Source: Myxococcota bacterium (GTDB lineage: Bacteria > Myxococcota_A > UBA9160 > UBA4427). Taken from it: a stretch of 64,000 bases of DNA. The translations under genes and the position numbers were made by a program. Below, in pieces: positions 4,056 to 19,020 of this stretch (position 1 is its first letter; every line of letters starts with the position of its first letter). A model generated the notes under the pieces. The model made no database searches, was not told the DNA's origin, and was given only the letters and a program-made list of their open reading frames with translations. The stretch is taken from the NCBI GenBank assembly GCA_028278345.1, contig JANQEL010000235.1, forward strand, positions 62,001-126,000, read 5' to 3'.

Positions 4056-5165
4056 ATGGTGTGCATCCACGAACGGGCAAATTGGCCGAATTTCCGTTGG
4101 AAAGGCGAGGAGTTAGCAGACGTTCTCGCCGCTGTGCGCCACCGCCAGGGCCGGTACCTCGGAAAGATCGAAGCCATGGGCTTCGAGTTACGCGAGACGG
4201 CGAGTATTTCGGCGCTCACCGAGGAAGTGGTGAGTTCTTCGGCGATCGAGAACGAGCACTTCGATCCCGATGCGGTGCGCTCTTCCATTGCCCGACGGCT
4301 GGGGCTGGAGGTCGCGGGGCTGCCCGTGCCGGAGCGACGCGTCGAAGGCGTCGTCGACGTGACGCTCGATGCCACCCAGAACTCCCAAGCCGAGCTTACC
4401 GCTGAGCGCTTGTTCGACTGGCATGCTGGGCTCTTCCCATCCGGCCGCAGTGGAATCCGTCGGATCGAGGTGGGTGCCTGGCGCAAGGCCGAAGCGGATC
4501 CGATGCGGGTGATCTCCGGGTCGATGGGGCGCGAGAGGGTTCACTTCGTTGCGCCCACTGCGGATCGTCTGGAAGGCGAGATGCAAGCCTTTCTCGAGTG
4601 GTTCAACGCGCCGCCGGTGACCGATCCCGTGATCAAGGCCGCGATCGCCCACTTCTGGTTCGTCACCATCCATCCCTTCGAAGACGGCAATGGGCGCATC
4701 GCCCGGGCCATCGGCGACATGGCCCTTTCGCGTGCTGACGAAACCCAGGGCCGCTTCTACAGCATGTCGTCGGCCATCATGCAGGAACGATCGGAGTACT
4801 ACAACCAATTGGAAAGGGCACAGCGGGGCGACCTGGATATCACCAACTGGCTTGCGTGGTTCCTTGGTTGCCTCGAGAGATCCATCGAATCTGCCGAGCA
4901 GAAGATCGCGGCCGTATTGAGCAAGGCGCGCTTCTGGGATCGAGTGAATGAGAACCCCGTCAACGTTCGACAGAAGACCGTTCTCAGCCGCATGCTCGAT
5001 GCCTTCCAGGGTTACCTGACGACATCGAAGTACGCGAAGCTGGCGCACTGCTCGAACGACACCGCGCTGAGGGATATACGCGACCTGTTGAACCGAGGCG
5101 TGCTCGTGAAGAATGAAGGTGGTGGACGGAGTACCAGCTATCGGTTGGTGATGGATGACGGGTAG
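4056..5165 (+). CDS. Fic family protein with DUF4172-type N-terminus
   Basis: Fic motif HPFEDGNGRIARAI; N-terminal NWPNFRWKGEELADVLAAVRHRQGRYLGKIEAMGFELR; C-terminal winged-helix-like region. Confidence 0.92.
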   Translation: MVCIHERANWPNFRWKGEELADVLAAVRHRQGRYLGKIEAMGFELRETASISALTEEVVSSSAIENEHFDPDAVRSSIARRLGLEVAGLPVPERRVEGVVDVTLDATQNSQAELTAERLFDWHAGLFPSGRSGIRRIEVGAWRKAEADPMRVISGSMGRERVHFVAPTADRLEGEMQAFLEWFNAPPVTDPVIKAAIAHFWFVTIHPFEDGNGRIARAIGDMALSRADETQGRFYSMSSAIMQERSEYYNQLERAQRGDLDITNWLAWFLGCLERSIESAEQKIAAVLSKARFWDRVNENPVNVRQKTVLSRMLDAFQGYLTTSKYAKLAHCSNDTALRDIRDLLNRGVLVKNEGGGRSTSYRLVMDDG

Positions 5166-5180
5166 GCTCTTACGCGACAG

Positions 5181-5870
5181 CTACTGCAGCAAAGAGGTCG
5201 CCAAGAACTCGACCACGTTCTCACGCGCCTCGTCCGGATCGAAGTCTTCGGGAGATCGGTCCCACTTGATGTGAACAGCCCAGGTAGTGCATGTCTCGAT
5301 GATGATCCGTGCGGCCAGCCTCGGGTTGTTTACCACGCGGATCTGGCCGGCCGCGATACGTGCCTCCAGGTACTGCACCAATGCTGCGCGCGGAGCCTCT
5401 CTGCCTGACGTCTGCCAGATGTTGCCCAGCTCGGGGTGTTCGCTGCAGCGGTCGATAAGCTTGATGCTTCGGCAGAAGCGCTCGAGAGTCTGATAGAAGC
5501 TCGTGATGATTTCTTCGAGTTCGGCTCTTGGATCTTCCGCTCGTTCCAGCTCGAGCGCTGCGCTCAAGGGCCCAGGTACAGCCGCACTCGAAAGCAGCTT
5601 CCGAAGCTCCCGCCCCATCTTCCCCGGCTTCGGCGTCGGAATAGGCAACACCTCCGGCACCACCAACGCCTCCTTCCGATCCGCATTGAACAAGCACAGC
5701 TGAAATAACGCCTCCTTGCTCTCCACGTACCCGTAGAGCGTCCCCTTCGCGACGCCCAACGCCTTCGCGATATCGCTCATCTGCGTGAGGCGATAGCCGC
5801 GGGCGATGAACACCTCGGTGGCCGCATCGACCAGCTGGTCGAACCGTTCTTCGGGGATCTTGCGCGCCAA
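5181..5870 (-). CDS. TetR/AcrR family transcriptional regulator
   Basis: N-terminal HTH: FDQLVDAATEVFIARGYRLTQMSDIAKALGVAKGTLYGYVESKEALF. Confidence 0.92.
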   Translation of the reverse strand: MARKIPEERFDQLVDAATEVFIARGYRLTQMSDIAKALGVAKGTLYGYVESKEALFQLCLFNADRKEALVVPEVLPIPTPKPGKMGRELRKLLSSAAVPGPLSAALELERAEDPRAELEEIITSFYQTLERFCRSIKLIDRCSEHPELGNIWQTSGREAPRAALVQYLEARIAAGQIRVVNNPRLAARIIIETCTTWAVHIKWDRSPEDFDPDEARENVVEFLATSLLQ

Positions 5871-6527
5871 CTAGCTGCTTTCCGTTGCGGGCAGGAAGAC
5901 CATGAAGCTCTGCATGGGGAGGAAGTGGTGCTCGGCTTCGATGCTATAGCCCGCTTCCTGCATCTCGCTCTTCATGTCTTCCGGCACCGTCCAATGCCCG
6001 TTTCCCTGCAACCACCGGAACGGAGGCGGCACATCGTGGCGATCATCGACATGCACGACGCGCCCACCCGGCGCCAGGTCGGCCTGCAGCCTTCGGAAGT
6101 AGTCGGGCCGGCCTTCGATGTGGTGATACGTATTGCTCGTCATCGCGATATCGATCTCGCCGTCGGGCAGCATCGGGTCGTGGAACTCTCCTCGCACCAC
6201 GGTGACGTTGCCCCAGCCCTCGCGCTCGACCCGCTCGTGAAGCTCGGCCACGAGTTCATCCGTCACCTCGACAGCGTAGACCGTGCCCGTTTCGCCAACC
6301 GCTTCCACGAGGAAGGGAAGCCAGTAGCCACCCCCCGCGCCGATCTCGGCGACCTGGTCGCCGGGCTTCACTTCGAGTGTGGCGAGCACCTGTTCGGGGA
6401 GTGCCCAGCCATCGCGGCCGCCGGTGACGAGGCCGCCGTAGTCCATCTTGCTGAGGGTGGTGCAGCCGGTGGTGGTGCAGAGGACGGGTAGAGTGACGAG
6501 GGAGATGAAGAAGAGGCGGAGTTTCAT
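5871..6527 (-). CDS. Class I SAM-dependent methyltransferase with apparent lipoprotein signal
   Basis: MKLRLFFISLVTLPVLCTTTGCTTLSKM then VAEIGAGGGYWLPFLVEAVGETGTVYAVEV (SAM motif I). Adjacent to the TetR gene, same strand. Confidence 0.83.
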   Translation of the reverse strand: MKLRLFFISLVTLPVLCTTTGCTTLSKMDYGGLVTGGRDGWALPEQVLATLEVKPGDQVAEIGAGGGYWLPFLVEAVGETGTVYAVEVTDELVAELHERVEREGWGNVTVVRGEFHDPMLPDGEIDIAMTSNTYHHIEGRPDYFRRLQADLAPGGRVVHVDDRHDVPPPFRWLQGNGHWTVPEDMKSEMQEAGYSIEAEHHFLPMQSFMVFLPATESS

Positions 6528-6965: not shown

Positions 6966-7901
6966 ATGCGGTGCATGCGATCAACCGTTTTGAATCTTTC
7001 CCTGCTTGCCGCATTCGTGGCCGCGACGATCGACTCTGCTCAGGCCGCGAACGAAAGCCGGCCCGCCCAAGCTCCTCCGCCCGAGGCACTGCTCGCCGAG
7101 ATCGCCTTCGATGACGATGCAGAGCCCAATCGCATCGTCATCGATCTCGCGCCCGACGAGAGCCCGTCGTTCAAGCTCATGGTGGACACCGGGGCTTCCC
7201 GCAGCGTGCTTACGCCATCGGCTGCACGCGAACTCGGCGTTTCGATTCGCCGGTTGAAGAGCTCGCCCTACCGACGCAAGACGCGGTTGGGGCGCGATCT
7301 CCAGTTCTACGTCGATACGAGTTCGAGTGACACGGGCTCGAAGACGGGTTTCGAGTACGGCCTCCTCGGAGCCAATTTCTTGCACCACTACGTGGTCGAG
7401 TTCGACTTCGCGAACCGCTGGGTGCGCTTCTACGACCCCGAGAAGTATGAGCTTCCCGAAAACACCGATTCGCCAGGTGAGGCGATTCTTGGTCTCGAGT
7501 TGATCAACAATCGCCCTGCACTCGAAGTGGACTACGGCGAGACGAGTCTATCGTCGCTGATCGACACAGGTGCGAACTCTTCGTTCATCGTCGGTGGAAA
7601 TGCGGCGGAACGTGCTGGCATCGACGTCAGGCATCTCCCGAAATACCGCCCACTCGGAACCGTACGCGGCAAAGTACCGACGCGAATCGATACCGCAGGC
7701 GCGTGGTCCGTCGGTCCGTTCGAGTTCGTGGATTCGCCCGTCATCGTCGCAACCCGCGGCTGGCACAACCAGGTCACGCGCGACCAATCGGTGATCGGCT
7801 ACGACGCTCTTCAACAGTTCACCCTTCGAATCGATTATCCGCGCAAGCGCGTCTGGATGCGGCGCGAAACCGATGTGAACACGGTCGAGGGTCTCGACTA
7901 A
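6966..7901 (+). CDS. Retropepsin-like aspartyl protease, two DTGA motifs, signal peptide
   Basis: FKLMVDTGASRSVLTPSAA and LSSLIDTGANSSFIVG; N-terminal hydrophobic signal ending AAFVAATIDSAQA. Confidence 0.82.
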   Translation: MRCMRSTVLNLSLLAAFVAATIDSAQAANESRPAQAPPPEALLAEIAFDDDAEPNRIVIDLAPDESPSFKLMVDTGASRSVLTPSAARELGVSIRRLKSSPYRRKTRLGRDLQFYVDTSSSDTGSKTGFEYGLLGANFLHHYVVEFDFANRWVRFYDPEKYELPENTDSPGEAILGLELINNRPALEVDYGETSLSSLIDTGANSSFIVGGNAAERAGIDVRHLPKYRPLGTVRGKVPTRIDTAGAWSVGPFEFVDSPVIVATRGWHNQVTRDQSVIGYDALQQFTLRIDYPRKRVWMRRETDVNTVEGLD

Positions 7902-7907
7902 GAACCC

Positions 7908-8399
7908 ATGCACAACGCAGGAGTCGTGGTCTTTCCCTATGACGTACTTCGCTACTGGGTTGGGTGGGTCGCTCCCGGATCGCCGGCGGACCGGATGGGT
8001 TTACGCGAAGACGACTACCTCGACCGCAAGGTGCGCGGAAAGCGGATCCCCTACGAGACGATCCTCAACCGGATCGCCGAGCGAAAGAGCACCCGAATCA
8101 CGCGCTACTCCAGCGGCTTCGAAGACAAGTGGGTCGAGTACACCCTCCGCGGCGATGGCACGAAACGCCTTACCTCCAAAGTCGACAAAGCCGCCCTGGC
8201 CCGCGAAACCAAACGCCGCGACGAAGAAGAGAAGGCACGCTGGGAGCGCGAGAAGAACGAGCGGATGTACGTAGAGGTGAAAGGCGGCTGGGTGCGAGTG
8301 GAAGGAGCTCGCCTGAGGGAGGGGCCCCGGGAGGGAGAGCGGTTTGTGACGTATGAGGAGTTGGTGGAGATTCGCAGGTCGTCGGAAGAAGGACGCTGA
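7908..8399 (+). CDS. PDZ-like domain protein
   Basis: WVGWVAPGSPADRMGLREDDYLDRKVRGKRI resembles a PDZ core; 6 nt after the aspartyl protease stop. Confidence 0.55.
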   Translation: MHNAGVVVFPYDVLRYWVGWVAPGSPADRMGLREDDYLDRKVRGKRIPYETILNRIAERKSTRITRYSSGFEDKWVEYTLRGDGTKRLTSKVDKAALARETKRRDEEEKARWEREKNERMYVEVKGGWVRVEGARLREGPREGERFVTYEELVEIRRSSEEGR

Positions 8400-8630
8400 C
8401 TTCGTTGCTTAGCGACCATAATCTCAGAATCGCGCGCAGACATGATTCAGTGCCAGCCGAAAAACCTCCTGATACTTCGTACAGGCAGGGATCGCGCAGC
8501 CCTGCGAAGCGAAACCCTGGTCGGCAAGAACTCCAACGTCAGGAGGTACGTCGCTCCGTTGGTCCGCGGATTCTCTCACGGGCTGGACCGACCGCGGAGC
8601 ACTGCCGACTGCTTACCGGGTGGACTGACA

Positions 8631-9002
8631 TTACATGGACTCGACCGCCGCGACGAGCCTGCCTAGATATCCTTCCGTCTTTTCGACGAACGCGATCGCA
8701 CCCGCTGCCTCGGCGGAATGTACTGCATCGATGTCTGTGCTTACGATGATTGCATTCACCTCCTTCGATGCCGATTGTTGTCTCGTCCAGGCAAGAAACT
8801 CAACCCCTGTGCCGTCAGGTAGATGTTGATCCAATACTAAGAGATCGAATTCGATTCCTGCGGTCAACTCCTTGGCGATCGTCAGCGACTCGGCCCACTT
8901 GACTCGGCCGAACCGCTCCAACCGTGCAAGCATCAGATTGGCATGGCCGCGGTCATCCTCGACCAAGAGAATGTCCAGGTTGTCCACCGAGTTCGTGGTC
9001 AT
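8631..9002 (-). CDS. Single-domain response regulator (receiver)
   Basis: DILLVEDDRGHANLMLARL; LLVLDQHLPDGTG; receiver-length ORF with no output domain. Confidence 0.9.
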   Translation of the reverse strand: MTTNSVDNLDILLVEDDRGHANLMLARLERFGRVKWAESLTIAKELTAGIEFDLLVLDQHLPDGTGVEFLAWTRQQSASKEVNAIIVSTDIDAVHSAEAAGAIAFVEKTEGYLGRLVAAVESM

Positions 9003-9008
9003 ATGGAT

Positions 9009-10355
9009 CTAAAGGCCATGCTCGTTCTCGAGGGGCGCCTCAGGAAGCGTAAAGAATACCGATGTGCCTTGGCCGTCGCCTGACTCGGCCCAAATCTTCC
9101 CACCCACTCGTGAGATCATTCTCTTGAGTGAGTACAGGCCCAGCCCGAGGCCCTGAGACTTCACGTCGGGCCCACGAACGAAGGGCTCGAAGACCCTATT
9201 GATTCGCTCCGGAGCGATACCGACACCGTTATCCGAAACGCAGAACAAGGATCCCGAGCGCCGAGCTGTCGCTGAGACTCGAACTACCAGCTCTTGGTCA
9301 TCTGGGTTGTGGGCGATCGCGTTGGTGACCAGGTTTCTGACTATATGTTGAAGGGCCTCCCGCCGTACGAAGACCCTCGGAAAGACCCCTGAGACCACAA
9401 CCGAGTCGTGGTCACGAAACTCCGCGGCGACTAGTTCGATTACCACGGCTCCGAACTCCACGGGTGTATCGCTCTCTACCTTTGCTCCATCTCTCATGAC
9501 TCCTACCAGCCCCGCGAGCATCGCATCCCCCCTACGCAGTGCTGCGATAGTCTCGGCCAAGAACTCGTCTCTTTGAGCTGGGTCTTCAGTTTGGGCCAAC
9601 TTGGCGTTCTCCAGAGCAATGGTCACCGGACTTCGAAGGTCGTGTGACACTGCTCGCGCGTATAGACGGATATTCTCCTCCGATTGTTCCAGGCTGGTGT
9701 TCCGTTGGGTCAGCTCTAAGGTTCGCTGATTGACTCGCGTCTCTAGTTCACGATTGAGTTCATCTGCACTGGCCTGGGCAGCTCGCCAGGAGTCAGCAAG
9801 CCAGCCCGAAATGAACGCAAGGGCCATCACGCCTGCGCCGTTCGCAAGCCCAGGCATCAGTGGCCATTCGGTCTCCAGGTCGTACGGGATCGGTTGCGGA
9901 CGCCATGTAACGAACTCGGCATGCACCGCCCAAATCAATAGGGCGTACAGAGCCGAGCTTGCTAAACCGACAAGAATCGCCGCAGAACTCGAATGGACGG
10001 CGGCGGCCATCACGACTAGGAACCCGAAGATGATAAGCCCGTAGCGCTCCGCTTCGGCTCCGACGAGGTAGATGCCAACGACCATGCAGAGCGTGTCTAC
10101 CAGCACTCCGATCATGGAAAGCGTTCGGAGATCCCACATCCCGCGTTGGGCCAGTGAGAAGTACGCGAATGTCATTCCGAGGTCGAACATCAACAAGAGA
10201 TAGACGTACGCGATCTGTTCATTGACGCCGGCAAAGAGCTGAACAAGCAAAAGAACGAGGAACGTGGCGACTAGGGTAATTACGCGCCCGTACTGATACG
10301 CCCTAAAGAGGTCACGCGGAGATTCGGGAAATCGGTCTATCTGTTGCCTACTCAC
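9009..10355 (-). CDS. Membrane-bound sensor histidine kinase
   Basis: Several N-terminal hydrophobic helices; H-box AVSHDLRSPVTIALENAKLA; N-box HIVRNLVTNAIAHNP; G1/G2 DNGVGIAPERI, GLGLGLYSLKRM. Confidence 0.93.
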   Translation of the reverse strand: MSRQQIDRFPESPRDLFRAYQYGRVITLVATFLVLLLVQLFAGVNEQIAYVYLLLMFDLGMTFAYFSLAQRGMWDLRTLSMIGVLVDTLCMVVGIYLVGAEAERYGLIIFGFLVVMAAAVHSSSAAILVGLASSALYALLIWAVHAEFVTWRPQPIPYDLETEWPLMPGLANGAGVMALAFISGWLADSWRAAQASADELNRELETRVNQRTLELTQRNTSLEQSEENIRLYARAVSHDLRSPVTIALENAKLAQTEDPAQRDEFLAETIAALRRGDAMLAGLVGVMRDGAKVESDTPVEFGAVVIELVAAEFRDHDSVVVSGVFPRVFVRREALQHIVRNLVTNAIAHNPDDQELVVRVSATARRSGSLFCVSDNGVGIAPERINRVFEPFVRGPDVKSQGLGLGLYSLKRMISRVGGKIWAESGDGQGTSVFFTLPEAPLENEHGL

Positions 10356-12960
10356 GTTGCGACTCGCGACGGTAGGGGAGACTGGCTATATGAGAAATCG
10401 GCAGTGCCGAAGCAGCTACCGAGACTGCGGCTGCCGCTAGAAGTGCGGTGCCGATGATTGGCCACGGAAGCACGAAATCAAGTTGCATACCTCCGCCGAT
10501 ACGAACTGAATCGGTGACGACGCTCCTAGCGATGTACGTTCCCGCTATGCAGCCTGAAGTGCCACCGACAATTCCGATGATCAGGGACTCACTTCGAAGG
10601 AGTCTGGCGACCTGGTGGGAAGTGGCGCCGATTTCCCTCATCAAATGAAACTCGGACTCTCTTTCACCAGCTGCAATCATGAAGAAGCTCATGATTGAGG
10701 CGACCACCACGACTACAGCGACAAACACCAGCGCGTAGCCCGCGTAAAAGGCAGAGTCTACGATCTCTTCTGCGGCCAGTATCACATCTTCGATTGCCTG
10801 CGCTGAAACGCCGAACTCACCGCCTAGAGTGCTTTCGATTCGAGCGATGACCTCTTGTGGTTCGTAGCCTTTGCTAGTCCATACGTGATATGCGTTCGCG
10901 CTGTCATCAAGCCACAAGCGAGCGAAGCGATCCTTCGAAACGATGATGGAGCCCAAATCGGAGTTGTAGTCAATAGCCACAGCTGCGACTTCGAGTCGAA
11001 CTCGACCACTCGGGGAGCGAACCTCCAGAATCTCGCCAGGGTCGAGTCCGTGCTTGACCGCCAACGTTTCGCTGATGATCGCGTGAGTGCCCGAGCGCAG
11101 TCCTTGATCGTGGGACGTGATGTTGCCCGCCTTGATCAAATACCGGTCGGGGTCCGTCAATCCGTCAGAGTCCCTTGCTACAACAACGGCCCACCGATCC
11201 AAGAAGGGCTGAGCGACAAGGCGGTACGCCTCAACGGATGAAATGCCTTGAATCGAGGCTAGTCTCGATTCGACGGCGCCGGGTATAGCCCGACTCGACG
11301 GGAGAAAGCCGACGTCACCACGAGATGCGACAACGATCTCGGACTGCTGAGTCGAACGTAGCCATGACAGGACGCCTTCTCGGAGACTCCCAACCGTTCC
11401 CACGGTCATGAGGAAGTACGAAACACCAGCCATTATGGACACAATGGCTACAGCACTTCTCGTCGGATCTGCCGTGACCGTGCGCCATGCTATCGAGAGT
11501 TGGATACAGGAGCTTCGCCCAAGGATTCGAGACACAGGCTTACGAGCCCACTGCAACAGCTTTGGAATCAGCAAGCCGAAGCCCAAGAACACGAGACAAG
11601 CACCCACGGTAACGAGGCCCCCCAGAACCTCGGCGTCGAGCTCACGAAGCTGAAGGGATCTCGACAGAACGCCAACAGTAAGCAGGCCGGCGCCAAACTT
11701 TGCGTATCGAGCACTCTTTGCAGCGCGAGAGACCGAGGGAGAGGTTACTCGGAGCCCGCTGCCGATATCTGATGCGCTTCGAACGGGTGAAACCGCTGCG
11801 CAAAGGGTGAGCAGAACCCCACATCCATATCCGATTGCGATTGTCTCGTTCGTGACGGTGAATACCGACGATTGAAGCGGCAAGTACAATGCTGCGATCG
11901 CGCCACGGAATACAGATGACGCGAGCTTTGCGATTGCAAGTCCAATCGCAATCCCGAGACTTGACGAAAGAAGCCCGATTAGCAGCGACTCCATTGCCAT
12001 CAGGGCCAGCAGAGACCGTGGTGTAGCGCCGAGCGCAACCATCATATCGAGTACGGGTTTTCGATTTGATGCCGACATCGACATCACGTTGAATATGATC
12101 AACGCACCGACAACGAGAGCGAGGCTACCCGCCACTCCCAAAATCAGGCGAATATTGAAAAGCATGTTCCGAATTTCGGGAGATTCGGACCCGCTCCAGA
12201 TGACCGTTCCGTAGTTGCCGACGAGCATCTCAATTCGAGACGAAGCACCGTTCACGTCAATCGCATCTCGATCGAGTCGAACGTCGATTGCATCAACGAG
12301 ACTGGCGCGTTCCAGTAGTAACTGGGCGCGCGGAAGGTCCATTATCACGAAGTCAGAGTCGAACCCGGCTCCTACTAGATTCGGTGCGAACACGCCCGCA
12401 ACAAAGAGTTCCTTGATTCCTGAACGAAGCTCACCGCGGATCGTCGAGCAGAGCTCGACACCCCAGTCGTGTGCAAGCTCGCTGGGAATGGCGATCGCGT
12501 TTGATCGAAGCAGAAAATCGGATTCCTGACACACCCGAAAGTCCGGGTTGTCCCGGATTCCATCGTCAAGATGGATTCGGTCGCCACCGAGTAGGTCCAG
12601 CCCGACAAGCGCAATCGGCGTTTCGCGCAGGACTGCTTGCCCCAGAATGATCGCTTGGGCATCTGCGACCCCGTCTTGTGCTCGAACTACCTCGAGGAGC
12701 TGTTCAGGCACTCCGGCGAAGCCGTTGGCTACTCGAAGGTCCGTCGTCGAGGCAGAGGGGGCGGCGGCTCTTGCGACAGATTCGACGGCCGAATCGACGA
12801 TAACGCGTGTTGCCGCGATCGTTGCCACGCCCAATGAAACAGATAGAACGAGGAGGCTGAATCGAATTCTGTGGCGAAAGACGAAGGGAATCGTTGAGTG
12901 GCGAAGGAGCGCAATAGCACGGCGAAGATGGCTGCGTCGAGTGACTCTTCGTCGTCGCAA
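10348..12960 (-). CDS. ABC transporter permease, FtsX/LolCE/MacB-like, duplicated FtsX domains
   Basis: RHRIRFSLLVLSVSLGVATIAATRV N-terminus; two hydrophobic FtsX-like segments (VVGALIIFNVMSMSASNRK, VVVASIMSFFMIAAGERESEFHLMREIGATSHQVARLL). Confidence 0.88.
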   Translation of the reverse strand: MRRRRVTRRSHLRRAIALLRHSTIPFVFRHRIRFSLLVLSVSLGVATIAATRVIVDSAVESVARAAAPSASTTDLRVANGFAGVPEQLLEVVRAQDGVADAQAIILGQAVLRETPIALVGLDLLGGDRIHLDDGIRDNPDFRVCQESDFLLRSNAIAIPSELAHDWGVELCSTIRGELRSGIKELFVAGVFAPNLVGAGFDSDFVIMDLPRAQLLLERASLVDAIDVRLDRDAIDVNGASSRIEMLVGNYGTVIWSGSESPEIRNMLFNIRLILGVAGSLALVVGALIIFNVMSMSASNRKPVLDMMVALGATPRSLLALMAMESLLIGLLSSSLGIAIGLAIAKLASSVFRGAIAALYLPLQSSVFTVTNETIAIGYGCGVLLTLCAAVSPVRSASDIGSGLRVTSPSVSRAAKSARYAKFGAGLLTVGVLSRSLQLRELDAEVLGGLVTVGACLVFLGFGLLIPKLLQWARKPVSRILGRSSCIQLSIAWRTVTADPTRSAVAIVSIMAGVSYFLMTVGTVGSLREGVLSWLRSTQQSEIVVASRGDVGFLPSSRAIPGAVESRLASIQGISSVEAYRLVAQPFLDRWAVVVARDSDGLTDPDRYLIKAGNITSHDQGLRSGTHAIISETLAVKHGLDPGEILEVRSPSGRVRLEVAAVAIDYNSDLGSIIVSKDRFARLWLDDSANAYHVWTSKGYEPQEVIARIESTLGGEFGVSAQAIEDVILAAEEIVDSAFYAGYALVFVAVVVVVASIMSFFMIAAGERESEFHLMREIGATSHQVARLLRSESLIIGIVGGTSGCIAGTYIARSVVTDSVRIGGGMQLDFVLPWPIIGTALLAAAAVSVAASALPISHIASLPYRRESQRE

Positions 12961-12974
12961 AACGGATGCCCTCC

Positions 12975-14789
12975 CTATGTTCGGGACACATCATCGAACT
13001 GGTCGCGAAAAAGCGAAATCGATTGTTTGGTACGAGCGTACTCATCCGCCAACGCTCGCACCCACTCGAATGAATGCGAAGAACGGTTCGATGCGTGCAA
13101 GGCAACGCGGGCAGCTGTATGCACAAGCAGCCGATTGCGAAGCCCTTCGTCTGGACTGAGCCTGTCCAGGCTGAGGCTCGCGAGCTCATGGTAAGCGCCC
13201 CGAACCTCCCTGCTGGCTGCTATCCGCGACGATTCGCGGAGTCTGGCTAACTGGGAGAACATCCGAGCGAGTACTCGATCAGCGAGTCCGAGCGTGAAGT
13301 ACGACTCCGCCCAATCGCCGCCTCGCGAGTCGTCGGTCGATGAGAGTTGCCGGATCTCAACGGAGTCGATGGCGAAAGTTGCAATTCGAAGAAGTTCGAG
13401 AGACCTAGCGATTCGATGATCATCGTCATGCAAGTCGAGATGTTGACACCCCGCGGTTCGGATGGAGTAGTAGACGGTCGCGAGCGGGGGTGGGCAATCC
13501 GGGAGTTGCAGCATCTCGCGGATCAGGTCGGAAAAGAACGGACGCTCGCGGGAACTCAGTTCGACTGCGCGATCGACCGCGATTCTTGCTAGTTCCTCGA
13601 CTCGGCTGTCTGCTGAGATCGAACTTGCTGACTTAGAGCTTCTAACTTCGGTTTCGAGCATTCGAAATACGGAACGCGCGACGCTAGAGCTTCTTCCGAA
13701 CATCGGGATGATTTCCCGCGAAAGATGGGCGGTGCTCTGATGTGCCTGAGTCAGTTTGTCGGAGAGACGGTCATACGTGCGATTCCAGCGAAGCAGTGAG
13801 GCGCCGTAGTGGTCCAGATCGGAGCCGGTCTCCAAGTGATCTATGACTGCGGATGCCGCAAGACCTCCAGTGGTTAGAGCTTGGGAGATCCCTTCGCCGG
13901 TGAATGGATTTGCCACTCCGGCGCAGTCACCTACCGCCAGTATTCCGGCACCGCAGTTCGAGCGTGCGCTGCCGCCGATTCGAATCGGCGCTCCGACTGC
14001 TCGGCCGATCGGCTCGGCATGGGCGAATCTCGGATCCCGCAGGACTAGTTTCCGCTCGAACTCCCGAAGCAAGACGCGAAGATTCGGTGCGCTTTGCGGT
14101 CTAGAGAAGTAGCCAGCTCCGACGTTCGCGAGGCCGTCGCCCACCGGAAATACCCAGCCATATCCAACGATGGGGATACCGAGGGCCTCGAGAGGAAAGT
14201 GCATCTCAAAACTATGAGACTCGCCGGGGAATTCGACGCCGTGCCAGTACCGCCGTGCGGCGAAGCACACGTGAGAGACGGTTGCCTGACGTACTGGCGC
14301 TTGGCGACGTAGCGAGCCTACCGACCCTTCGCCCAGAATCGTGACCGGGGCCAAGGCCGTCTCTAGGGCGCCGTTGGGTGTTCGCATTCGGACGCCGCGA
14401 ACTACGTCACCGTCAACGACGAGTGACTCGGCGGTGGTCATCTGTCGAACCTCCGCTCCGGCTTTGGAGGCGGCGCGGAGAAGCTCGCCGTCGAGAAACT
14501 GACGAGGCACAACAGCCCCCGGGTAACTATTGCGAAGTTCGAACTCGGCCGTAGCGTTGCCACTTGTCGACTTGGTAACAACCCGAGAAATCCTGGGAGC
14601 CTCGCCGAGATCGATCCCCAGTGATTCGACCAGTCGCACGGCCTCTGGGAACAGACCGTCACCACAGGCCTTGTCCCGGGGGAAGGATGATCTGTCCACC
14701 AGCAAGACCCGGGATCCCGCAGTAGCGAGCCGAATCGCTGCAGCGCTTCCTGATGGTCCGCCGCCGACTATGATGGCGTCTAGCTTCAT
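12975..14789 (-). CDS. Geranylgeranyl-reductase-family FAD-dependent oxidoreductase fused to a C-terminal degenerate prenyl-synthase-like domain
   Basis: Rossmann MKLDAIIVGGGPSGSAAAIRLATAG...DRSSFPRDKACGDGLFPEAV; GILAVGDCAGVANPFTGEGISQAL. Start at 14789 gives an ATGA overlap with the upstream gene. C-terminal ~200 aa extension discussed in findings. Confidence 0.87.
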   Translation of the reverse strand: MKLDAIIVGGGPSGSAAAIRLATAGSRVLLVDRSSFPRDKACGDGLFPEAVRLVESLGIDLGEAPRISRVVTKSTSGNATAEFELRNSYPGAVVPRQFLDGELLRAASKAGAEVRQMTTAESLVVDGDVVRGVRMRTPNGALETALAPVTILGEGSVGSLRRQAPVRQATVSHVCFAARRYWHGVEFPGESHSFEMHFPLEALGIPIVGYGWVFPVGDGLANVGAGYFSRPQSAPNLRVLLREFERKLVLRDPRFAHAEPIGRAVGAPIRIGGSARSNCGAGILAVGDCAGVANPFTGEGISQALTTGGLAASAVIDHLETGSDLDHYGASLLRWNRTYDRLSDKLTQAHQSTAHLSREIIPMFGRSSSVARSVFRMLETEVRSSKSASSISADSRVEELARIAVDRAVELSSRERPFFSDLIREMLQLPDCPPPLATVYYSIRTAGCQHLDLHDDDHRIARSLELLRIATFAIDSVEIRQLSSTDDSRGGDWAESYFTLGLADRVLARMFSQLARLRESSRIAASREVRGAYHELASLSLDRLSPDEGLRNRLLVHTAARVALHASNRSSHSFEWVRALADEYARTKQSISLFRDQFDDVSRT

Positions 14790-15802
14790 TCCTTCGCAGA
14801 GCTCCGAACACACGGCAGGGTTGTCTGAAAGAACGTGTCCATCAGGTGGGTGAGATTAGAAAGGGGGCCTGAGGCCGGGAGGCGATCGATCGCTTTCAAG
14901 AACTCCTGCCTTTCAGATGCTGCGATTCTCTCGGCTTTGTGAAACCCACCGGCCGAGATCGCAAGTTCAACTACGCGGCGTGATCGTTCTAGAGGCAAAG
15001 GCCGACCATCATCCTCAAGAATTCCAGTCAGCTCCTGGCCCTCAGGAGTCCCTGATCGCGCAGCGAGTTGAATCGGCAAGGAGTAGAAACGATTTCGCAG
15101 GTCTGTTGCGCTCGGCCTCGCCCGCGGATCGAATTGGACGAAGTCGAGTAGGTCATCGCACAGCTGATACGCCGTACCAAGGTGTGAGCCGATCTCTCCG
15201 AATGCGTTTACGTTCCGCGCTCCGCCGCACCAGGCACCACATTTGGCTGCAAGCTCGAAGAGAGCGCCAGTCTTTCGCCGTGCCATCGCGATGTACGAAG
15301 TGACAGAAACAGATAGATCGCCCGCGGTCTCCATCTCTTGAAGTTGGCCAGCCGAAACGTCCAGAGAGGTTCGACCCCACCAGACTGGCAGTGGGTCGGG
15401 GAGTGCAGCAAATAGCGCGTTCGCATGAACGAGGAGGTGAGCTCCGCCAACGGAGGCGACACGAACCCCCCATTTTCGGTGCGTCGAGGGGCTCTCGCGA
15501 CGGATGTCGGAACGGTCGACTATGTCGTCGTGGTAGAGCGTTCCAACGTGAGCGATTTCGATTGCTAGCGCCGCCCGGCGCGCCGAATCCCAGTCGGTCG
15601 CCGCGGAGTTCCTGCTGGCATGCAAGGCACACAGAAATAGGACTTGCGGTCGCAGAAGCTTGCCGGACGTTCCCACCGGCAACCCGTGAACTCCCGCCAG
15701 GCGAGACGCCGAGAACTCTCCCGTCACTAGACGGCGCACGTTCTCGAGTTCATCTGATACCCGATCCTGAGTACTCCGAAGGTATGTGCGCTCTTCGGTC
15801 AT
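14786..15802 (-). CDS. Polyprenyl synthetase family protein (trans-isoprenyl diphosphate synthase)
   Basis: First Asp-rich motif LYHDDIVDRSDIRRESPSTH; second LCDDLLDFVQFD; SGKLLRPQVLFLCALHA region. Confidence 0.92.
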   Translation of the reverse strand: MTEERTYLRSTQDRVSDELENVRRLVTGEFSASRLAGVHGLPVGTSGKLLRPQVLFLCALHASRNSAATDWDSARRAALAIEIAHVGTLYHDDIVDRSDIRRESPSTHRKWGVRVASVGGAHLLVHANALFAALPDPLPVWWGRTSLDVSAGQLQEMETAGDLSVSVTSYIAMARRKTGALFELAAKCGAWCGGARNVNAFGEIGSHLGTAYQLCDDLLDFVQFDPRARPSATDLRNRFYSLPIQLAARSGTPEGQELTGILEDDGRPLPLERSRRVVELAISAGGFHKAERIAASERQEFLKAIDRLPASGPLSNLTHLMDTFFQTTLPCVRSSAKE

Positions 15803-16632
15803 CGTAGTCCTCGCGCGTCTCTCTTTGTGTCGCCAAACTCCAATGCGGTAGTCGTGAATCGTTCAGTCGGAACACGTTCCAATAGCTCAATCCGAGAAAC
15901 TTCCAGTACCGTCATTGTTCCTGCACCTGAAGAGAATTCCATCCGCGTCGGGATGTAGAACCCATCCTTCTCAATGACATTCTCCGTCGGGATCCTTGCC
16001 GTCTTAAGCAGCTCGGGACCTTTGTAGAACTCGATTCTCGAAATAGTCGGCAACTCTCGGTCGAACCAAGCTATCAATCGGGCATAGGCACTCGGAAAGC
16101 CGTTAGGTGTTAGTTCAACTACAAGAGCTGGCCGACCATCAAGAGAATCCTCTCGCAAGAACCTAGGTTTCCACTGTGGCGCTCGCTTGCCCTCAAGATC
16201 TTCAAACGCCAGGTCGGTTCCAAAGAAGCGATCTCCCCGCTGGTACAGCGAGACTCGTCTCACCTTCTTGAGGGAAGGCTGATATACGAATACGTCGTAC
16301 TCGAAAGTTGGACGCTCCCTGAGCAGGATTCCCAAGTCCCGCATCTCTTGCGGATATCCGAATCTGACCAACATCCGGTTGAGGCCCACACTCGCCGACT
16401 GTCGAATCACTTGGGCGGAACGTTGGAATTCCTGATCCGACGTGTGCGCGGTGAAGGTGACATCTTGGATCGAGCTGAATCCGTAGAGATTGTCGAACGC
16501 GCGACGCACAGTCTGTTCGATATCCGGGGCCGCTACGTGGGGCGGTTGGGCATCCTCTGCTACCGATTCTGCACGAGCCGATAGGCAGATGCATACGATT
16601 AGAAGGATTGTGACTGGACCGCGGGTGTTCAC
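15799..16632 (-). CDS. Outer-membrane lipoprotein-sorting (LolA-like) family protein
   Basis: Signal peptide; QSASVGLNRMLVRFGYPQEMRDLGILLRERPTFEYDVFVYQPSLKKVRRVSLYQRGDRFFGTDLAFEDLEG is typical of COG2834-type proteins. 4-nt overlap with the prenyl synthase gene. Confidence 0.75.
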   Translation of the reverse strand: MNTRGPVTILLIVCICLSARAESVAEDAQPPHVAAPDIEQTVRRAFDNLYGFSSIQDVTFTAHTSDQEFQRSAQVIRQSASVGLNRMLVRFGYPQEMRDLGILLRERPTFEYDVFVYQPSLKKVRRVSLYQRGDRFFGTDLAFEDLEGKRAPQWKPRFLREDSLDGRPALVVELTPNGFPSAYARLIAWFDRELPTISRIEFYKGPELLKTARIPTENVIEKDGFYIPTRMEFSSGAGTMTVLEVSRIELLERVPTERFTTTALEFGDTKRDARGLR

Positions 16633-16748: not shown

Positions 16749-17447
16749 ATGAGATCTCGAGAAGTAGATAATGTAGCTCCCCCGCGAGTCGAAATGATCG
16801 ACGTTCACGTCGAGTACAGGCGCGGAAGAGTCGAGATCGAAGCTCTGCGAGGCGCGAATCTCTCAGTAGCTGCAGGGGAGTTCCTGGCGATAAACGGACC
16901 GAGCGGGAGTGGGAAATCTACGTTGCTTCGCGCGGTCGCAGGGCTCTGCGTGATCAGCGAGGGTGAGGTCAAGTTGGATGGGCGGTCACTTCGAGGGATG
17001 ACCGAGTCAGAGTTAGCTGTGATGCGCCGTCGCGACATTGGAATGGTCCATCAGCTGTTCAATCTGCTCCCGGATCTCTCGGCGTCTGAGAACGTCGGGT
17101 TCCCGCTAGATCTAGACGGCTTCAAATCCGATGAAGTTCGATCCAGAGCGATTGCGGAAATGGAGCGTCTAGGAATTGCAGGTCTCGCGGACCGTATGCC
17201 GGAAGAGCTGTCCGGCGGCGAGCAACTCAGAGTCGCTCTAGCCCGCGCGCTCGTCGTGCAACCTCTAATTCTACTTGCAGACGAGCCCACTGGAGCGCTG
17301 GACCAGGAAGCTAGCCAGAAAGTCATGAGCATCCTTCGAGAGCTGAACGGGCAGGGGATCACGATTCTGATGGTTACACATAACCCGGATGTCGCGGCCT
17401 ACGCAGAGCGAACCGTGAGCGTGGTAGATGGAGCCATTATCGATTAA
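16749..17447 (+). CDS. ABC transporter ATP-binding protein (LolD/MacB type)
   Basis: Walker A NGPSGSGKSTLLR; signature ELSGGEQLRVALARAL; Walker B LILLADEPTGALD. Confidence 0.94.
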   Translation: MRSREVDNVAPPRVEMIDVHVEYRRGRVEIEALRGANLSVAAGEFLAINGPSGSGKSTLLRAVAGLCVISEGEVKLDGRSLRGMTESELAVMRRRDIGMVHQLFNLLPDLSASENVGFPLDLDGFKSDEVRSRAIAEMERLGIAGLADRMPEELSGGEQLRVALARALVVQPLILLADEPTGALDQEASQKVMSILRELNGQGITILMVTHNPDVAAYAERTVSVVDGAIID

Positions 17448-17715: not shown

Positions 17716-19020
17716 ATGAGTTCTATGATGCCGCACCCGATCGAACCGGAAGCTGCCCACAAGGTCCTGATCGTCGAGGACGATCTGGCTCACGCGCGAC
17801 TGATGCGAGCGTCTCTCCGGAAGGTTGGTATCGAGTCGGAACATGCAGGCACACAAGAAGCCGCCCTGCGCCTACTACGAGAGTCGGACTACGACGTCGT
17901 CTTGCTGGACATGACCCTTCCAGACGGCGATGGCTTCGAGATTCAGCAGTGGCTCACCGAGAACGCGCTCCCATCCTCGATCGTTTTCGTCACTGCTGAC
18001 GACCTTGCAGAACATGCGGTCAAAGCTGTCCGTGCTGGTGCGGCGAACTACGTCGTCAAACGCCCCGACTATCTCACGCAACTCGTTGAGGCCACGGTCG
18101 AAGCACTCGAAGCGCGTGCCGAACGTGCGGGGACGATCCTCGGCGATTCCAGCAACTCCATCGCCCAGCGAATGATCGGATGGAGCTCCTCGATGGTCGA
18201 AGCCCGGAAGCTGATTGCGGAGTTCGCTCCACAGATGCGCGCCCTCCTCGTTGTTGGAGAGTCTGGCACCGGGCGGTCCGCCGTATCGCGCCTGGTTCAT
18301 TCGGCCTCGAAGCGAACGGGGGCCTTCGTCGTTGCGAACTGCCGTGAGCTCTCAGAGCGGCTGGAAAAGGGTGGTTCGAGCGAAGCTGCTTTCGTCGATC
18401 GCCTGGCCGAGTCGGCAAAGCGGGGGACTCTCGTGCTGGAAGACATCACCGAAGCTTCACAGGCCCTCCAAAGCGGCTTGCTCTCGGCGATCGAGGACCT
18501 TCCCCAGCTCGATGTCCGACTGATCGTAGAGTCCGAGTTCGACCCGGCGATCGATGTCGTGGGGATCGAATTCATGGAAGGTCTGTGGATTCGCCTGAGC
18601 GGTACTCGCATCGAACTCGCTCCCCTTCGCGACCGCAAGGAAGACGTCCGGCCGATCGCCTCCCGCGAGCTGACACGGCTGGGTGCGGAATCGTCGCGAG
18701 GGCGGTTCGATCTCGACGAAGACGCCTGGGCGATGCTCGAGACCCACGGCTGGAACGGCAACGTTCAGGAGCTTCTGGCTTGCATTCGTGCCATCGTGGC
18801 TTCGAGCGAAACGAAGTCGAGTTTCGATCGTTTCGATACTGAGGCCGCGCTACGTGATACCGAGCGCCGGTTTAGCTCCCGCTCACAGCACGATCAGAAA
18901 GAACGCTCACGCCTCAAGGCCGCACTCGATCGCCACGACTGGAATGTCACCGCCACGGCCAAGACGCTCGGCGTCTCGCGTGGCTGGCTGCGACGACGGA
19001 TCGAGTGGTTCGATCTCTAG
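17716..19020 (+). CDS. Response regulator: receiver + degenerate NtrC-type AAA domain + Fis-type HTH
   Basis: KVLIVEDDLAHARLMRASL; LLVVGESGTGRSAVSRLVH; GTLVLEDITEASQ; C-terminal RSRLKAALDRHDWNVTATAKTLGVSRGWLRRRIEW. No GAFTGA. Confidence 0.88.
   Translation: MSSMMPHPIEPEAAHKVLIVEDDLAHARLMRASLRKVGIESEHAGTQEAALRLLRESDYDVVLLDMTLPDGDGFEIQQWLTENALPSSIVFVTADDLAEHAVKAVRAGAANYVVKRPDYLTQLVEATVEALEARAERAGTILGDSSNSIAQRMIGWSSSMVEARKLIAEFAPQMRALLVVGESGTGRSAVSRLVHSASKRTGAFVVANCRELSERLEKGGSSEAAFVDRLAESAKRGTLVLEDITEASQALQSGLLSAIEDLPQLDVRLIVESEFDPAIDVVGIEFMEGLWIRLSGTRIELAPLRDRKEDVRPIASRELTRLGAESSRGRFDLDEDAWAMLETHGWNGNVQELLACIRAIVASSETKSSFDRFDTEAALRDTERRFSSRSQHDQKERSRLKAALDRHDWNVTATAKTLGVSRGWLRRRIEWFDL

Follow-up and report, generated by a model that had tools for sequence, protein, structure and literature searches.

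A predicted prenyl reductase with a probable pseudo-synthase tail, encoded beside an intact polyprenyl synthase, suggests coupling of chain building and saturation

The window analysed here, a stretch of 64,000 nucleotides, encodes a flavoprotein of the geranylgeranyl reductase (GGR) family, GGRx, that continues for about 215 residues beyond its reductase module and whose gene overlaps that of an intact trans-polyprenyl diphosphate synthase (PPS). What is this tail, and what might it have to do with the synthase next door? A preliminary description of the window read the protein as a GGR fused to a catalytically degenerate prenyl-synthase-like domain that could pair with the neighbouring enzyme. 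We find that the tail is most likely a PPS-derived pseudo-domain, and its occurrence together with an adjoining intact synthase, in one operon with a pump for lipid export, suggests that the enzyme building the prenyl chain and the one saturating it are physically coupled.

Table 1. Features of the GGRx locus (positions in the window; GGRx residues in the 612-aa numbering)
Feature	Position	Strand	Evidence
GGRx: GGR-family flavoprotein (aa 9 to about 372) with probable C-terminal pseudo-PPS domain	12975..14789	-	ORF, TIGR02032, phmmer, ortholog
GGR flavoprotein module	13630..14789	-	GGGPSG 14748-14765; GYGWVFP 14145-14165; VGDCAG 13917-13934
Probable C-terminal pseudo-PPS domain (aa 394-612), predicted all-helical	12975..13634	-	PDB profile ranking and reversed control, MAFFT, AlphaFold2, Foldseek
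First Asp-rich motif position, DDxxD to DSVEI (aa 483-487)	13353..13367	-	MAFFT, coordinates
Second Asp-rich motif position, DDxxD to RDQFD (aa 603-607)	12993..13007	-	MAFFT, derived coordinates
Intact trans-polyprenyl diphosphate synthase (DDIVD, DDLLD)	14786..15802	-	PF00348 E 9e-43; PDB matches
LolA-like outer-membrane lipoprotein-sorting protein	15799..16632	-	PF17131; ATGA overlap with PPS
FtsX-type ABC permease	10348..12960	-	PF02687 E 4e-27
Membrane histidine kinase	9009..10355	-	
Stand-alone response-regulator receiver	8631..9002	-	
ABC transporter ATPase, likely FtsX permease partner	16749..17447	+	PF00005 E 6e-32; conserved with cassette
NtrC-type response regulator (receiver, AAA+, Fis HTH)	17716..19020	+	conserved with cassette

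The reductase module and its C-terminal tail

The reading frame of GGRx is open from a GTG (12975-14813, minus strand, 612 aa). Its start is likely the ATG at 14789, which yields the 604 aa previously described and overlaps, as ATGA, the stop codon of the PPS gene before it, the alternative being the GTG at 14813 (612 aa). GGRx exceeds the family cut-off of TIGR02032 (173.5 bits against 158.8, aa 12-323) and matches the DGGGPL reductase 3oz2 in phmmer (E 2e-19), and its alignment to the solved archaeal GGRs 3oz2 and 3atq spans the FAD, GYGWVFP and VGDCAG regions, bearing out the complete GGR-type FAD module that had been claimed. By family, we predict that GGRx is a prenyl-chain reductase.

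Beyond about aa 373, GGRx has no match in Pfam or NCBIfam, and a Pfam search with the tail gave no hit up to an E-value of 10, hence the cut-off of PF00348 is not reached. The trans-prenyl-synthase-like stretch quoted in the preliminary description is present in GGRx, positions 12975-13616 corresponding to aa 400-612 in the 612-aa numbering. A profile made of two sequences, the tail in the window and that of an ortholog from a second species (G001), was compared with 177,635 PDB sequences. Two PPSs ranked first and second, in the register of that description: heptaprenyl diphosphate synthase component 2, with E-values of 0.12 for the full tail and 0.089 for a trimmed one, and a polyprenyl synthetase, with 0.52 for the full tail and 0.40 for the trimmed one. 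The reversed profile returned no hits. Because at least 125 of the 177,635 sequences are recognizable PPS entries, the best PPS hit would have an E-value of about 1e-4 if these alone were counted. Column-shuffled profiles equalled the real profile against PPSs in 2 of 200 cases by HMMER mean score and in 2 of 150 by hhalign. When the tails were aligned among 47 PPSs with MAFFT, the first Asp motif coincided with that of the synthases in all three settings, and in two of the three the alignment covered the full tail, beginning at its first helix and reaching the second Asp motif.

Other comparisons gave little or nothing. An HMM of 47 PPS sequences does not detect the tail (score below zero bits), a PSSM alignment (overlap) test of the tail against PPSs did not exceed shuffles (Z 1.3 and 0.03), phmmer with either tail singly found nothing, hhalign against five PPSs was weak and uninformative, and global hhalign could not tell the tail from shuffles. 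Homology to PPSs is probable rather than proven because the direct PPS-HMM searches were not significant; the signal in the sequences we regard as weak but real.

AlphaFold2 models the tail as eight helices (pLDDT 81, pTM 0.81), on an alignment whose 47 PPS sequences bias the model towards the PPS fold. Full-length GGRx, with the two orthologs alone in the alignment, gave no usable fold (pLDDT 34). In a Foldseek search with the tail model from the PPS-containing alignment, 48 of the top 50 hits have the PPS fold (E 0.013 and above), with TMq mostly 0.5-0.67 (0.67 with 2j1p and 0.65 with 3aqb, HexPPS). The OsGGPPS1-OsGRP heterodimer 5xn6 ranks 13th, and MoeN5 structures also occur among the hits. 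The fusion of a degenerate PPS-like domain to a GGR, for which a comparison of the C-terminal region with polyprenyl synthases by AlphaFold and profile had been proposed as a check, is supported: the PDB profile ranking, the motif-by-motif alignment and a confident PPS-like model speak for it, but the model grew from a PPS-seeded alignment, hhalign was weak and the PPS HMM and PSSM were negative.

Could the tail instead be an unrelated helical extension whose likeness to PPSs is coincidental? The weak or negative HMM, PSSM and hhalign tests and the bias of the model by its alignment would fit such an origin, but it would leave to chance that two PPSs head a ranking of the whole PDB with an empty reversed control, that so few shuffles do as well, and that everything between the first helix and the second motif aligns at a natural spacing. 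We consider coincidence unlikely and a PPS-derived fold very probable.

The Asp-rich motif positions

If the alignment of the tail to PPSs is right, the loss of the catalytic motifs is clear, the homology itself appearing weak. The preliminary description had noticed that catalytic Asp residues appear lost at the first DDxxD, and this is supported by DSVEI in GGRx; the ortholog reads GDIDI there, and its second position lies beyond the contig edge. The decay of the second motif to RDQFD had gone unnoticed. A reading of the second motif by eye as DQFDD was rejected, since MAFFT places it one residue earlier. The two positions are 120 residues apart, compared with 124-134 in intact PPSs. The tail therefore has neither of the two DDxxD motifs of a trans-polyprenyl synthase, retaining one Asp in the first and two in the second; moreover, the RR pair is down to one Arg, and GGRx ends 5 residues after RDQFD, without the C-terminal third of a PPS. 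The PPS-like fold, and hence the decay of the motifs, is very probable, and a tail that has lost both metal- and diphosphate-binding Asp motifs, together with the last third of the synthase, is most likely noncatalytic. A tail still active as a noncanonical prenyltransferase of the MoeN5 sort would be in keeping with the MoeN5 structures found by Foldseek, but it would have to work with these few Asp residues, a single Arg and no C-terminal third, which makes it very improbable.

A noncatalytic bundle might also hold substrate or dock on the membrane, its old prenyl tunnel presenting the polyprenyl chain to the FAD site without any protein partner. The modelled fold is a prenyl-binding helical bundle, and a long chain needs handling. 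However, both diphosphate-binding motifs are decayed and GGRs in general function without a PPS-like tail, so that such a role seems quite improbable. The reading that we prefer, in which the tail is a pseudo-synthase that binds the active synthase, draws on the surrounding genes.

Gene neighborhood and distribution

On the minus strand, the gene order is LolA-like protein, PPS, GGRx, FtsX permease, histidine kinase and receiver, and the ABC ATPase and NtrC-type regulator lie on the plus strand. ATGA overlaps join the LolA-like gene to that of the PPS and the PPS gene to GGRx. The synthase has, as previously described, both DDxxD motifs intact (aa 92 and 216). Small residues before the first DDxxD of a PPS go with medium or long chains; because those preceding the first motif here are small (GTLYHDD), the product may, by these established rules, be of medium or long chain length.

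The NtrC-type regulator seemingly lacks the GAFTGA loop and may therefore not act with sigma-54; its counterparts in two other genomes have GAFTGA (G033, L104:9039-10376) and GAFTSA (G001, L128:4380-5717). The G+C content of the cassette region (window 8000-16000) is 57-59%, as against 61-68% in the rest of the window, perhaps reflecting horizontal acquisition.

The only ortholog of GGRx found belongs to a second species of the same genus (G001, L025:2-1576, minus strand; 46-47% identity) and is cut by a contig edge at aa 531. Its GGR part is better conserved (51% identity) than its tail (36% over aa 400-531), and the best-conserved tail segments include LGxxDRxLARxF, the helix after the first motif. 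PPS and GGRx are kept together in this species, again with an ATGA overlap, and an active PPS (PF00348) is thus encoded alongside the tail in both. The whole cassette is present there, split over two contigs that, to judge from synteny, would join between GGRx and FtsX. A search for further GGR fusions of this architecture, covering 91 genomes of the class and, for the phylum, a sample of 379 genomes, found this one besides the window's own genome (G000), confining the tail fusion to two genomes of one genus. No PPS lies within 1.5 kb at the other GGR-relative loci fetched.

Weak tail matches in three genomes (a RecN-like ORF in G020, and G313 and G306) were put down to chance in view of their ORFs or of stop codons. 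A peptide-pattern scan of genome contigs gave no match with GGRx and three distant PPSs in unrelated contexts with the PPS, one of them a Nocardia locus. In Nocardia anaemiae (L039), two long ORFs (4188-6209, plus strand; 7675-9816, minus strand) each appear by eye to combine a PPS with a C-terminal region of terpene-synthase type. Another PPS of the window's genome (L002, G000:C63:6444-10151) lies, also by eye, between squalene-associated FAD desaturase-like and IspH-like genes, suggesting a separate cluster of squalene/hopanoid type. This genome also encodes an IspB-like PPS of the housekeeping kind (L001).

A third species, from another family of the same order (G033), shares the cassette (LolA 42%, ABC 55%, FtsX 33%, kinase 32%, NtrC 34%). 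Instead of PPS and GGRx, this species encodes a PF01255 cis-prenyltransferase (56 bits; L104:13927-14799, G033:C22), whose gene is flanked by those for the FtsX permease and the kinase. The presence of two unrelated prenyl-chain enzymes in one transport cassette argues that the cassette serves a polyprenoid. Near FtsX relatives from outside this order, tblastn detected no PPS, GGR or cis-prenyltransferase, so these loci say nothing about the prenyl link.

Proposed role and comparison with known systems

On balance we lean, by a little, towards GGRx being a prenyl-chain reductase fused to a trans-polyprenyl-synthase-derived pseudo-enzyme domain that docks on the neighbouring synthase, with the product exported by the cassette. 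The tail would probably keep the helical core and dimer surface of its ancestor and probably dock on the intact synthase from the overlapping upstream gene. This synthase would build a polyprenyl chain, of which the tethered GGR module would saturate at least one double bond. Under two-component control, the FtsX/ABC transporter and LolA-like carrier would then move the completed polyprenoid or a lipid that carries it. We infer docking, channelling, the product and its export; the pairing of synthase with reductase and the channelling between them, as first proposed from the window, gain plausibility from the ATGA overlap, from co-conservation in the second species and, by analogy, from a plant precedent.

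Canonical E-type PPSs are homodimers, and the conserved LGxxDRxLARxF helix could likewise serve a pseudo-PPS tail that self-dimerizes, making GGRx a homodimer out of contact with the active synthase. Such a homodimer seems rather unlikely, given that the ATGA-coupled neighbour is itself a PPS conserved with GGRx and that known inactive PPS subunits pair with active PPSs (PMC7839719, PMC9863795).

If docking on the synthase is true, the fusion would be direct genetic evidence that chain-building and chain-saturating enzymes act as one unit, would be convergent with the plant GRP-GGPPS-GGR complex, and would offer a simple two-gene bacterial system for testing channelling. The cassette also points to an uncharacterized, regulated export route for polyprenoid lipids. 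A wider proposal, which we put forward tentatively and consider doubtful as a whole, is a bacterial synthase-reductase metabolon in which the reductase-attached pseudo-PPS recruits the active synthase and supplies a regulated ABC/LolA polyprenoid-lipid exporter with a swappable chain-making module (trans-PPS plus GGR, or cis-prenyltransferase). A literature search found nothing direct on GGR-PPS fusions or polyprenoid exporters.

Like other members of the GGR family (TIGR02032; 3oz2; Sulfolobus GGR 3atq), GGRx has the FAD module and the GYxWVFP...NVG and GDxAG regions, but it carries roughly 215 extra residues, whose profile is absent from all other GGR relatives searched. The tail resembles the E-type trans-polyprenyl diphosphate synthases (PF00348; nearest 9kp1_B, 4lob and 3aqb) in aligning with them from its first helix as far as the second Asp motif and in its modelled fold, and differs from them in the decay of both DDxxD motifs, the missing C-terminal third and the lack of a Pfam score. 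In heteromeric PPSs, inactive small subunits without DDxxD, such as HexA (HexPPS) and the mint GPPS SSU, likewise work as noncatalytic partners paired with an active PPS (PMC7839719); these are not fused to a reductase, and the tail matches no small-subunit Pfam family. Rice OsGRP (SSU II), itself without catalytic activity, brings GGPPS together with GGR in a complex, steering GGPP to chlorophyll (PMC13207904, PMC9863795). The plant partners are separate proteins, and OsGRP is highly similar to GGPPS, whereas the domain of GGRx is fused, very divergent and a putative binder; the likeness to the plant system (5xn6) lies in an inactive PPS homolog that links an active GGPPS to a GGR.
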